From a bacterium (GTDB taxonomy: Bacteria; Actinomycetota; Acidimicrobiia; Spongiisociales; ZC4RG35), in assembly GCA_028819345.1 (NCBI GenBank), contig JAPPLW010000054.1, positions 1 to 39,695 of the forward strand: a DNA stretch of 39,695 nucleotides, given 5' to 3'. Position 1 is the stretch's first letter. Each line of letters begins with the position of its first letter. This document shows, piece by piece, positions 14,718-18,921 of the stretch. Both the position numbers and the translations under genes were made by a program. A model generated the notes under the pieces. It made no database searches and was not told the origin of the DNA. It saw only the letters and a program-made list of their open reading frames with translations.

Positions 14718-15122
14718 TCAGTCGGCGGGTCTCAACTCCAATGAACAGGAGTTGATGCAGTAACGCATGCCGTCGGGTCCGGGGCCATCCGGGAACACAT
14801 GTCCCAGGTGACCTCCGCAGGCCTTGCAGAGCACCTCGGTGCGGACCATGCCGTAGGAGTGGTCGACGCGGGTCTCGATCCGGTCGGGATCCATGGCCTG
14901 GTAGAAGGAGGGCCAGCCGGTGCCGGAGTCGAACTTGGTGCCGGAGTCGAACAACTCCATACCGCATCCGGCGCAGGAGTAGGTTCCCGAGTCCTTGGTG
15001 TTCCAATAGGTCCCGGTGAACGGACGCTCGGTGGCGCCCTCCCGCAGCACGCGGTATTGCATGGGGTCCAGGCGTTCCCGCCACTCGGCTTCGGATTGAG
15101 GGAGGGTGGTTTCTTCGCTCAT
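14718..15122 (-). CDS. msrB: Peptide-methionine (R)-S-oxide reductase MsrB
   Basis: This 134-residue MsrB reduces the R epimer of methionine sulfoxide. The zinc Cys pairs CAGC (50-53) and CKAC (99-102), the substrate motifs GTGWPSF and GGHLGHVF, and the catalytic Cys in RYCINSC (Cys122) are all present, with a second Cys at 126. It lies upstream of dnaK on the same strand but is separated from it by the dnaK promoter. About 160 bases on the other side hold a small CCTGTC/GACAGG hairpin (15245-15262) and no gene. Confidence 0.95.
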
Positions 15123-15281: not shown

Positions 15282-15758
15282 TCAGGGGGAAGAGTCGTCA
15301 AGGATCCGAACCAGATGATCCAGTAGGGCTCTCTGGCTGGAGGCGATGCTGACTCTGGCCTCGGGAATGGAGAACCACCTCGCCCGGTCTATCTCGGGGA
15401 ACTCTCGGGTTCTCCCCGAGCGAGGTGGCCACTCCATCGAGAACATCCCGGGTTGAAGGGCCTCGGGGTCGAAGTCCGCTTCCACCGCCCAGATGGTCAT
15501 GATCTGGTTGGCGGCTTTGACCTCGGGCAGTGGCAGCCACGGGTCCGGTGGCGCATTCCAACCCGTCTCCTCCTCGAATTCGCGGGTGGCCGTCTCCAGG
15601 GGGGTTTCGCCGTGGTGGCCTCTTCCCTTGAAAACGGTCCAGGCTCCCTGATCGCGCCGAGCCCAGAACGGGCCGCCGTAATGGCCGAGCAGCACTTCCA
15701 CGGCGCCGGAGGAGTTTCGCCGGTAGATCAATATTCCGGCGCTGGCCCGGGGAGCTAT
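15282..15758 (-). CDS. NUDIX hydrolase, probable ATA start
   Basis: The NUDIX box is complete: G-x5-E-x7-REFEEETGW, within KGRGHHGETPLETATREF. FWARRDQGAWTVFKG upstream fits the diadenosine-polyphosphate/ADP-ribose-like subgroup. NUDIX enzymes hydrolyse nucleoside diphosphates linked to another group; the substrate is unknown. The family N-terminus should be near APRASAGILIYRR. The codon before this is ATA (15756-15758) with AGGGAGGA six bases upstream. The nearest in-frame canonical starts are TTG 15731, which would cut the first strand, or TTG 15836, inside the upstream gene. I therefore place the start at ATA. It follows the selenoprotein gene by 31 bases. Confidence 0.75.
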   Translation of the reverse strand: MAPRASAGILIYRRNSSGAVEVLLGHYGGPFWARRDQGAWTVFKGRGHHGETPLETATREFEEETGWNAPPDPWLPLPEVKAANQIMTIWAVEADFDPEALQPGMFSMEWPPRSGRTREFPEIDRARWFSIPEARVSIASSQRALLDHLVRILDDSSP

Positions 15759-15789
15759 TTCGGTCCTCCCTGTTCTTCCGGTCCGGCTT

Positions 15790-16302
15790 TCAGGTCGACA
15801 ACGCCGCCAGGATCTGCGGAAAAGCGATCTCGGCAAGAGACTGCATCTCTTCGTCGCTCCGGTCCTGGATGGGATGGGGCGTGAACACTCTGCGGGGATG
15901 CAGGCCCAGGGCCTCTCCCTGAGCATCGGCCGCCTGAGCGAACCGGTCCGACGCCACGAACACCCCCGGGACGCCGCGGTCTTCCAGGTCAACGAGGTCG
16001 TGCACACTGCACGACGCGCACGAGCCTCAGTCGGCCAGGGCTTCGACCACCGCGGTGCACTCGGCGGCGATCTGCTGGCGCAAATCCAATGGCGCCGGTT
16101 TGGAGAAGGTGGGTTTGCGGTAGTGCTTCACCGACACCCCTCTCTCAGCGAAGAGTTCCTCCAGCCTCTTGATGAACACGTCGCCTCTCGGCTTGGATAT
16201 GTCCAGCAAGGCCACTGTCCCCTCCCCCAGGTCCGGAAGTCGGGGACTGAGTTGTCGCTCCTGGACGGTTCGTTCGCTGGTCGGGTCCAACAATGCGGTC
16301 AT
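15790..16302 (-). CDS. UGSC-type selenoprotein with in-frame UGA read as selenocysteine
   Basis: A 91-residue frame from ATG 16302 ends at TGA 16027-16029. The same frame continues without a stop to 15790, giving 170 residues in all. Around the TGA the protein reads ...VEALAD-U-GSCASCSVHDLVDLEDRGVPGV, which is the U-G-S-C motif of the UGSC (seleno)protein family. The downstream half (GVFVASDRFAQAADAQGEALG, then RVFTPHPIQD) is well-formed protein and in frame. A perfect 8-bp stem-loop begins 11 bases after the TGA (separate entry). The family function is unknown; a UxxC-type redox site is an inference. GGGGG lies upstream of the ATG. The partner gene ends 10 bases upstream, so the two form an operon. 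Without recoding, the frame would look like two separate short genes. Confidence 0.85.
15997..16015 (-). promoter_or_regulatory. Candidate bacterial SECIS stem-loop
   Basis: On the minus strand GTCGTGCA and TGCACGAC form a perfect 8-bp stem around a GTG loop. The stem starts 11 bases after the in-frame TGA (16027-16029), so the loop is about 20 bases downstream. Bacterial SECIS elements lie directly downstream of UGA within the coding region and present a G/GU in a short apical loop to SelB. Position, stem and loop G all fit. Confidence 0.72.
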
Positions 16303-16312
16303 TTGATCCCCC

Positions 16313-17773
16313 TTAGTTGTCGATGGCGGCGGTGGTCATCTGGGAACTGGCTGCTCCACCGATCCAACCGGAGATTATTGCCGAGAACATCCCGGCATCT
16401 CCTCCGGCGTGGACGAACCACAGGCCTTCGGCGGTGTATTTTGCGAATTCCTTCCCTCCAGCGGCCACCTGAGGCGGCATGCCCTCCGCTACTCCACCGG
16501 CTCCGGCCGCTACCTCGGCCCCCGGGAGGGTGAGCAGTGCGTGGATCTCCCGGCGCAGCCGGGTCTTGGACCAGCCCGCCTCCCGGAAGATGCGGGCGTG
16601 TTCGGGGGAGACCACCACTATCGCGTCGGCCATTCCGGCCAGCTTGGGATGGCCGACCATGCGCAGTTGCAGTGCGAAAGTCCTGGCCAGAGATTCAGGG
16701 TTGCGGGACTTCTGGTCGATGATCTCGATCGGTCCGTGGCCGGCAAACAGGGTCACCGTGGAATCTTCGGGCCAGAATCCCCGCTCCACGGACAGGGACT
16801 CCCAGGGAGACCCTTCTTCGTCTTCGGGGAAGCAGAAGGAGAGTTTTCCCGGGCTACCCAGAGCGGCGCGGTCCACCCCGCCCGGTCGGGAGCCTCCCAC
16901 GTTCCTGACCACCAGGTTGAGGGCTCGTCCGATGGTCAGGTTGGCCCGGTTTCCCTGCCCCAGCGCATTGATGCCGGAATTCATCCCTATCCGGCGGCGG
17001 ATCGGGCCGTTCACCACCATCACCGGGCCCGTGAAGTAGGTGGTGGCCGAGATACCGTGGATGTTGAAGCGGCTGGTGGCCGCAGCCTTCACCGCTCCCA
17101 GCACCACCGGCAGGTATTCGGGCAGGCAGCCGGCCATCACCGCGTTTATCGCCACCTTCTCTACCGTGCATTCGGCCAGGTCGGGAGGGAGTACGCACAC
17201 CACCTCGCCCGGCGCCCGGGAGGTGCCCTCCAGCATTCGGGCCACCCGCTCCTCGGTGGGCGGCGTCACGGGGAGGCCGTCCGTCCAACCGCGGGCATAA
17301 GCAGCTTCAATGGGGTCCTCGGCGCTTCCGAGATCCACCCGTCGCGATGAGATACGGTGAGGGGAGTGGCGTCGCATGAGACGCTGGTACACATCGGGCA
17401 GCATTGTGTCCGAGCCGCATCCCGGCCGTTGGTCCGGAAGCCCCGCACCGAGACCCGGAGTGCCGGCGACCCGTTCCCAGCCGCTCCTCAGCCAGCCGGC
17501 CTGCTGATCGGCCACCTCCCCTTCTGCGAGGCGGTAGATGGTGGGGGTGGTCTCGGTCTGTAGCTTCCAGGAGATGTCCAACTCCCGGTCGTGCAGCACT
17601 TCGAAACCTGGCGGGAAGTCGGCCTGATCCTGGGATACCACAGTGAAGGTCCGGTCGCCTGCGGCGAGTTCGGCTAGGACGGGAACCACCAGGTGACAGG
17701 TCTCGCAATCGTCCTTCACCACCGCCAGGAGTCCGTCCGTGACGGGAAGGGCCATGGTGGACTCGTCGCTCAT
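16313..17773 (-). CDS. Thioredoxin-like CxxC domain fused to a UGSC-associated domain of unknown function
   Basis: 486 residues from ATG 17773 (a TTG directly before it is also in frame). The N-terminal 100 residues look like a thioredoxin fold: a strand LLAVVKDDCETCHLVVPVLAEL with C-E-T-C, then a TETTPTIYRL stretch resembling the cis-Pro loop. A large C-terminal domain (about 150-486) follows, with ARGWTDGLPVTPPTEERV, MNSGINALGQGNRANLTIGR and a Gly-rich C-terminus. I do not recognise a characterised family for it. The gene lies immediately upstream of the selenoprotein, so the CxxC domain may pass electrons to or from its U-G-S-C site. A role in reducing or transforming an oxidised or metalloid-bearing small molecule is speculation. 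Confidence 0.7.
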   Translation of the reverse strand: MSDESTMALPVTDGLLAVVKDDCETCHLVVPVLAELAAGDRTFTVVSQDQADFPPGFEVLHDRELDISWKLQTETTPTIYRLAEGEVADQQAGWLRSGWERVAGTPGLGAGLPDQRPGCGSDTMLPDVYQRLMRRHSPHRISSRRVDLGSAEDPIEAAYARGWTDGLPVTPPTEERVARMLEGTSRAPGEVVCVLPPDLAECTVEKVAINAVMAGCLPEYLPVVLGAVKAAATSRFNIHGISATTYFTGPVMVVNGPIRRRIGMNSGINALGQGNRANLTIGRALNLVVRNVGGSRPGGVDRAALGSPGKLSFCFPEDEEGSPWESLSVERGFWPEDSTVTLFAGHGPIEIIDQKSRNPESLARTFALQLRMVGHPKLAGMADAIVVVSPEHARIFREAGWSKTRLRREIHALLTLPGAEVAAGAGGVAEGMPPQVAAGGKEFAKYTAEGLWFVHAGGDAGMFSAIISGWIGGAASSQMTTAAIDN

Positions 17774-17818
17774 CAAGTTGACTCTACAAGTGCCGCGGTT
17801 GTAACGAGGAGCGGGGTG

Positions 17819-18391
17819 TCAGCTGATTGCTCCCTCAACCCGGAGCAGGCGCCTCTTCCGCTCAGCACCTCCCAATCCGTAGTGGCCGATCCGGCCATCG
17901 GAGAGCACCACCCGATGGCAGGGGATCACCAGGGGAACGGGATTGCGGGCCATGGTTTGGCCCACCGCCCTGGCAGCGCCGGGACGTCCGGTCCGGTTGG
18001 CCAGCCATCCGTAGGAGCGCGTCTCACCGCGGGGGATGGCCGCGGTCTGCTCCAGCACCAGTCGCTGGAAAGAGGTCACGGATCGAAAGTCCACCGGCAA
18101 AGCCCCGGGAGTGCCCTCCGCCAATGCCCGGATGATCAGATCCTCCCAGTCTCGGGGGGGACGAGCCTCCAGGAGAGATCTTCGGAAGCGGTCCGCGAAG
18201 CGTTCTTGGAACCCTTCGGTGAACAGGTCCACGGCCGAAACGCCCAACGGGTTGAAGGCCACCACCACCGATCCCAACGGTGACTCGAACACCCTGAAGC
18301 CGTCGGAGAGTCCGGTCCCCAGCGCCACTCCGTCCGACACTCCGCTCGGCGCTGGGACCGAGAGTCGTTCCAACTTCTGTTCCAGGGTCAT
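17819..18391 (-). CDS. ogt: Methylated-DNA-protein-cysteine S-methyltransferase
   Basis: This 190-residue protein has the active-site PCHR (Cys158 in VIPCHRVV), the helix-turn-helix RGETRSYGWLANRTGRPGAARAVG and the C-terminal YGLGGAERKRRLL. It removes alkyl groups from O6-alkylguanine to its own Cys, a suicide repair reaction. The N-terminal domain (SPLGSVVVAFNPLGVSAVDL) is the usual ribonuclease-H-like half, preceded by an unusual 30-residue leader. Its start overlaps the end of the sigma factor gene by four bases. Confidence 0.92.
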   Translation of the reverse strand: MTLEQKLERLSVPAPSGVSDGVALGTGLSDGFRVFESPLGSVVVAFNPLGVSAVDLFTEGFQERFADRFRRSLLEARPPRDWEDLIIRALAEGTPGALPVDFRSVTSFQRLVLEQTAAIPRGETRSYGWLANRTGRPGAARAVGQTMARNPVPLVIPCHRVVLSDGRIGHYGLGGAERKRRLLRVEGAIS

Positions 18392-18921
18392 ATTCGTTCC
18401 TCCTCCTTGGTTTCTTCCTCGATGATCGACCGTAATCGGGCCAGTCCCCGGCTGACGTCACTCCGGACGGTGTTCGCCGGTCTGCCGGTGACCTCCGACA
18501 TCTCCCGGTAGGTGAGTCCCGCCACATGGCGCAAGATCACCGCCTGCCTCTGGGCGGGCGGCAGCCGTGTCCACCGCCTGCGCCAAGCTTCCGAGTCGGG
18601 AGGTTCCTCCGGAAGGTATCCGGCTTCCTCCAACCGCGCCGGCTTCGGCCGCCTGGACTCTGCGCGGACTTCGTTGCGCACCAGGTTGAGGGCGATCGTC
18701 CAGACCCAGCCTCGCAACCGCATGGCTTGAATGCGTTCGGGAGGATAGGTTCTCATGGCGCGGTACGCCCGGATGAAAGCCTCTTGGGTCAGGTCTTCGG
18801 CGCGATGGTGATCGCCGGTCAGTTGGCGCAGCCCGCTGAAAACGCCGCGTTGAAGGCGGCACACCAAGTCGGGGAAGGCCTCGTCCAGATCGGATGCCAG
18901 GGACCTGGCTAAATCGTCCAT
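18388..18921 (-). CDS. ECF-type RNA polymerase sigma factor
   Basis: 177 residues. Region 2 contains GDHHRAEDLTQEAFIRAYRAM and RLRGWVWTIALNLVRNEVR. Region 4 contains LPPAQRQAVILRHVAGLTYREMSEVTGRPANTVRSDVSRGLARL. There is no region 3, as in extracytoplasmic-function sigma factors, and no anti-sigma gene is adjacent. It is translationally coupled to ogt (ATGA overlap), so the two are expressed together. The gap to the divergent LigD gene (18922-19049) contains the likely promoters, but I could not define one with confidence. Confidence 0.88.
   Translation of the reverse strand: MDDLARSLASDLDEAFPDLVCRLQRGVFSGLRQLTGDHHRAEDLTQEAFIRAYRAMRTYPPERIQAMRLRGWVWTIALNLVRNEVRAESRRPKPARLEEAGYLPEEPPDSEAWRRRWTRLPPAQRQAVILRHVAGLTYREMSEVTGRPANTVRSDVSRGLARLRSIIEEETKEEERI

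Follow-up and report, generated by a model that had tools for sequence, protein, structure and literature searches.

Positions 16302 to 15790 on the minus strand of the window (the whole stretch of 39,695 nucleotides analyzed here, contig JAPPLW010000054.1) almost certainly form a single gene of the UGSC family encoding a protein of 170 residues with selenocysteine (Sec) at residue 92, a reading that draws on the joined frame, profile matches and an AlphaFold2 model. With the protein encoded immediately upstream, hereafter the partner, it would constitute a GrdB-like two-component selenoenzyme, and we consider this statement as a whole, Sec identity and mechanism included, somewhat probable.

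A Single UGSC Gene with an In-Frame TGA

A preliminary description of this region had interpreted two short minus-strand frames as one UGSC gene split by a TGA codon, and this interpretation was borne out. The first ORF (16302-16027, minus strand) starts with an ATG and encodes 91 aa, and the same frame continues past the TGA to a stop codon at 15792-15790. The TGA (16029-16027), corresponding to U92 of a UGSCxxC motif, is the sole in-frame interruption, and the read-through product contains MTALLDPTSERT...ALAD-U-GSCASCSVHD.... A putative ribosome site, GGGGG, lies between the stop codon of the partner gene and the ATG of the UGSC gene. The ORF list obtained with the standard code shows the splitting that had been expected from ordinary gene calling, with the 91-aa ORF and an unrelated downstream ORF at this locus.

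The read-through protein matched the NCBIfam UGSC profile NF041046 with 145.8 bits (residues 29-168; cut-off of 125 bits) and the Pfam profile PF24696 with 142.7 bits (residues 4-169; cut-off of 25 bits), and both matches span the TGA. U92, G, S and C95 of the motif are all present, in agreement with the identity proposed from ALAD-U-GSC in the joined protein, and homologues carry either Sec or Cys in the first of these positions. The protein resembles the family over its full length and in its UGSC motif, Sec and size, with no distinguishing difference, and is a new member of this known family, in the sub-clade with thioredoxin-bearing partners. In aquatic metagenomes, few selenoprotein families are as common as UGSC (PMC2398784, accessible text); since the family is thus common and was named long ago, the selenoprotein status of this gene is no surprise in itself.

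When compared to its closest relatives, L051 and L052, the gene gave dN/dS ratios of 0.12 before and 0.11 after the TGA for the former, and of 0.14 and 0.13, respectively, for the latter. By these ratios, the coding sequence on both sides of the TGA is under purifying selection. Across UGSC homologues, the codon at the Sec site was TGA in nearly all cases, TAG in two genomes and a Cys codon in a few, each time within one frame; the exception was L042, a degenerate fused form with Met at this site. Halves encoded as two genes with their own starts, the arrangement that the preliminary description had named as contrary to its reading, were found in none of the homologues examined.

Selenocysteine Machinery and SECIS Element

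The genome from which the window derives (2.8 Mb, 95.9% complete) was searched for selA, selB, selD and tRNA-Sec, as had been advised, and all were present above cut-offs. The tRNA-Sec has a UCA anticodon (79.5 bits), SelA (411 bits) and SelB (289 bits) are encoded side by side on contig C108, and SelD (377 bits) has an in-frame TGA of its own in GUGCK. This SelD (L018, G000:C100:13418-14332) is itself a selenoprotein, with the motif GAG-U-GCK.

A predicted bacterial SECIS hairpin (GUCGUGC, loop AGUGU, GCACGAC; 15997-16015, minus strand) begins 11 nt past the TGA. Its stem of 7 bp was paired in 95.8% of cells across 78 distinct stop-codon forms; three pairs showed two-sided changes, in eight cells, and 0 of 500 shuffles matched the covariation score, a comparison that overstates significance because the sequences are related. 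The GU of the loop was kept in 59 of 60 distinct stop-codon forms. In these 60 forms, the loop serine, where present, was always encoded by AGT (50/50, a count from related sequences that is not to be read as a literal probability), a codon accounting for 6.9% of serine codons in partner genes. This choice of codon is, at the sequence level, the cleanest test of the SECIS. The loop serine was TCG in four Cys forms (L035, L038, L039 and L125), and the hairpin was broken in all five Cys forms examined. For L125, a TGC form, the top match of the tRNA-Sec search in its genome was a tRNA-Ser.

The two TAG forms belong to Blastococcus (L061) and Geodermatophilus (L116), and the tRNA-Sec of these genomes has the anticodon CTA. 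ARAGORN labelled these CUA tRNAs (in L161 and L160) as tRNA-Pyl. UAG-encoded UGSC selenoproteins of Geodermatophilaceae have already been published (PMC5330540, citing earlier work, in its accessible text); they share the family and the Sec position with the gene described here, which differs in having the usual TGA/UCA combination.

The presence of two short frames under the standard code would also be expected if the TGA were a plain stop codon, either between two separate genes or within a pseudogene. However, the purifying selection on either side of the TGA, the family profile that crosses it, the SECIS and the Sec machinery, the joint switch to TAG and CUA, and the Cys forms among relatives make this explanation highly improbable.

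Domains of the Partner Protein and a Second Candidate Sec Site

The partner gene (16313-17776, minus strand; 486-487 aa) is located 10 nt upstream of the UGSC gene. The thioredoxin-domain partner noticed in the preliminary description is real: residues 6-106 of the 486-aa form (17456-17758) adopt, in a model with a pLDDT of 94.7, a thioredoxin fold (VIA-align Z of 9.6, rmsd of 2.0, 86 residues aligned) with a CxxC active site, CETC, encoded at 17696-17707. This domain is followed by a conserved RPG-C-GS cysteine (17417-17419) and by a core domain of about 335 residues (about residues 150-486; 16316-17326), which co-occurs with UGSC and is sometimes fused to it. D165, G166, C216, R283 and E317 are invariant in the core.

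No family in Pfam or NCBIfam matched the core; at relaxed cut-offs of the same collections, no core match was recurrent, and the recurrent matches were of the thioredoxin type. A comparison of the core by hhalign with Gly_reductase (PF09338) and with GRDB gave no signal. The list from a fold search with the whole-partner model was filled by thioredoxins; a match to the class I fumarase 6mso (E of 5.8e-3, TM of 0.23) was too weak to be retained. The core is probably the same as the conserved domain "Unknown_1" reported as fused to UGSC in PMC2398784, in whose accessible text we found no mention of a thioredoxin extension or of a second Sec site. Short partners (L031, L037, L047, L021 and L027) are without the thioredoxin domain and have an additional CxxxxC segment at their tail or head end (CGPDGC, CSDGAC, CEDGAC), which may stand in for it.

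The cysteine of the RPG-C-GS motif was found in the strict PG-C-GS pattern in 66 of 80 partners and with slightly changed surroundings in 10 of 80. In four homologues, TGA stands in place of its codon, with no other interruption of the frame (L071:4001-5407, L099:4001-5440, L123:4001-5461 and L129:4001-5416); these come from two betaproteobacterial and two Acidimicrobiaceae genomes. Because the same codon occurs in two distant lineages, this TGA likely encodes Sec. A tRNA-Sec was found in the genome of L099. A stem is possible after the PG-U-GS codon, and a similar stretch is also present in the Cys form L059. The PG-U-GS partner is thus a probable second, apparently unnamed, selenoprotein of the same system, and the site may define an unreported selenoprotein family whose members are split by gene callers.

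Co-Occurrence of UGSC and Its Partner

In a survey of the phylum, the core adjoined UGSC, on either side, or was fused to it in 27 of 28 loci. Among 296 genomes drawn from Actinomycetota, 22 had UGSC above cut-off, 23 had a strong core match and 22 had both (hypergeometric probability of 2e-32, uncorrected for relatedness); G183 was the only genome of this draw with the core and without UGSC. UGSC was also adjacent in most of the 80 named loci found via the partner, which span Actinomycetota, Proteobacteria, Acidobacteriota, Chloroflexota, Myxococcota and others. Two named strains, Pseudonocardia bannensis DSM 45300 (L073) and Geodermatophilus obscurus DSM 43162 (L116), have the system in their genomes. 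Some of the loci lie at contig ends, L054 and L062 being cut within UGSC and L101 stopping just past the partner. Eight genomes having a partner with no adjacent UGSC were searched whole, and UGSC was found elsewhere in all eight. Natural fusions of UGSC and the core exist as well. These patterns of gene position and sequence show that the UGSC protein belongs with a partner in which a thioredoxin domain is followed by the conserved cysteine of RPGCGS and by the large core.

Genomic Context and Paralogues

On the same strand as the UGSC pair, the window encodes MsrB (14718-15122) and a NUDIX protein (15282-15766) downstream, and a methylguanine-methyltransferase-like protein (17819-18391) and an ECF sigma factor (18388-18921) upstream, the latter two genes overlapping by 4 bases. 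Genes of the same sizes are found upstream in the near relative L051, where the sigma factor was confirmed by Pfam. The pooled neighbour table of the thioredoxin-type clade revealed no shared pathway neighbour, the flanking genes being mixed.

A second pair of UGSC and core genes in the same genome (L181, G000:C69:16500-25000), with the motif GN-U-GACTAW, is flanked on one side by AtuA and DUF4387 genes and on the other by acyl-CoA dehydrogenase and SDR genes. In the betaproteobacterial MAG that contains L099 (G299; loci L185-L197 and L201-L215), 30 UGSC matches were detected; each has one TGA, except for one fragment, and nearly all adjoin the core or are fused to it. Some of these paralogues are without the second Cys (UGTS, UGSS) and have kept U. 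Among 106 neighbouring proteins, 41 were TctC receptors, an excess that remained significant (1.7e-8) even at the highest background guess (16%), although the raw count overstates this association, which is the weaker evidence, because TctC genes are very numerous in this genome. Other neighbours included MmgE/PrpD, CoA-transferase III and acyl-CoA dehydrogenase genes. The near-constant partner and the relatives of UGSC suggest a selenium-dependent enzyme that degrades small molecules, as opposed to an antioxidant of general function.

Fold of UGSC and Kinship to GrdB/PrdB

The AlphaFold2 model of the UGSC protein, built with 68 family members, had a pLDDT of 94.5 and shows five strands alternating strictly with helices, Sec92 being placed at the start of the helix that follows strand 3. 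The fold matches were of generic flavodoxin/Rossmann types (VIA Z of at most 11.8, many matches being nearly tied); no thioredoxin was among the matches listed, an absence that by itself excludes nothing. UGSC is listed as Trx-like in the accessible text of PMC2398784 and PMC13188914; contrary to this supposition, the modelled structure appears Rossmann/flavodoxin-like.

A profile search of UGSC and its partner against PDB sequences returned no significant match. GRDB-family genes of the same phylum were read through their TGA for profile comparison, giving ...ILTST-U-GTGTRCGSTLAKELERAGIP.... With hhalign, residues 81-170 of UGSC aligned to the GRDB Sec domain, the two Sec positions coinciding, with a probability of 93.6, an E of 2e-7 and a score of 56.8, and the score was still 46.1 when both Sec columns were masked. 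In the controls, 198 of 200 column shuffles scored at most 23.1 and the reversed profile scored 23.0. The two remaining shuffles, scoring 133, were discarded because they aligned 8 or 30 columns at the end of the query and contained gap artefacts.

By profile comparison, the Sec half of UGSC is thus homologous to the Sec domain of GrdB/PrdB (PF07355), which is the Sec subunit of glycine/betaine/sarcosine reductase and of D-proline reductase, a kinship that is secure only for the C-terminal ~88 residues. Within this domain, UGSCxSC in UGSC corresponds to UGTGTRCG in GRDB, and the Sec is followed in both by LExxGIP and then by an (H/Y)P motif. In the known glycine reductase, thioredoxin is the electron source, which we counted as a further likeness. 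The UGSC proteins of the clade described here also share UxxCxxC with clostridial GrdB (PMC6778437 and PMC13188914, accessible text). In the accessible parts of the literature naming UGSC, we found no link to GrdB/PrdB.

Several differences set the two systems apart. The Pfam GRDB profile PF07355 matched neither the UGSC protein nor any protein of its own genome, in which no pyruvoyl protein GrdE/PrdA (PF09338) was found either, and UGSC is without the N-terminal part of GRDB; for these reasons, UGSC is, as judged from profiles, not a GRDB member. Instead of the pyruvoyl protein PF09338, UGSC has the partner described above, and the hosts of the family extend beyond Stickland-type anaerobes to Pseudonocardia, Geodermatophilus and Reyranella. 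L231, L232 and L233 also hold small GRDB-like proteins in which U is part of a U-x-x-C motif (GUPLCNQSVG or a similar sequence); the Pfam GRDB model, ending right before the Sec codon, cuts them at the TGA.

Proposed Mechanism and Alternative Functions

We propose that UGSC and its partner form one enzyme working like GrdB/PrdB, the Sec subunits of glycine and proline reductase. The Sec, located where the helix after strand 3 of the Rossmann-like fold begins, would act as a nucleophile on a small organic substrate that the core domain would help to hold, and a carbon-heteroatom bond of this substrate would be cleaved reductively. The Sec would end as a selenenyl-sulphide, between U92 and C95 or C98, and could be reduced back by the RPGC(U)GS thiol and the CxxC thioredoxin site of the partner. 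Substrates may differ between the paralogues, as is the case for catabolic enzymes. The kinship to the Sec domain of GrdB/PrdB, the constancy of the partner, the fusions and the catabolic neighbours were counted in favour of this proposal; the missing N-terminal part of GRDB, the core without sequence kinship to PF09338, the mixed flanking genes in the thioredoxin-type clade and the second Cys absent from some paralogues were counted against it.

Alternatively, UGSC could be a general redox selenoprotein of the thioredoxin or peroxidase kind, using its UxxC motif against peroxides or protein disulphides. Such a role would fit the motif itself, the thioredoxin domain of the partner, the Trx-like fold assumed in the accessible text of PMC2398784 and PMC13188914, and the methionine sulphoxide reductase MsrB encoded downstream in the window. 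However, MsrB is not regularly present in the pooled neighbour table, the five-strand alternating beta-alpha model with Sec after strand 3 finds its best matches among flavodoxin/Rossmann folds, and the profile kinship points to GrdB/PrdB. Some paralogues also dispense with the second Cys, and about 30 paralogues near catabolic genes in one genome would be odd for an antioxidant, so that we regard this role as unlikely. It could also be envisaged that the core, which is the larger part, has its own invariant residues and occurs in G183 with no UGSC, is the real catalyst, the Sec of UGSC merely shuttling electrons or protecting a cysteine of the core. Yet no position of UGSC is better conserved than Sec, and the second Cys differs from paralogue to paralogue, which counts against a pure shuttle because a shuttle would need a resolving Cys; an accessory role of this kind appears quite improbable.

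No function has been assigned to UGSC since it was named, and its placement beside GrdB/PrdB, together with a thioredoxin-bearing partner, makes the question testable. As a tentative proposal that we hold to be possible rather than probable, UGSC and its partner may represent a widespread selenoenzyme system that resembles GrdB/PrdB and extends beyond Stickland-type anaerobes, with a new reductive-cleavage chemistry, many substrate-specific paralogues (~30 in one genome) and a partner able to carry a second Sec (PG-U-GS) that would pass on electrons from its own thioredoxin domain.
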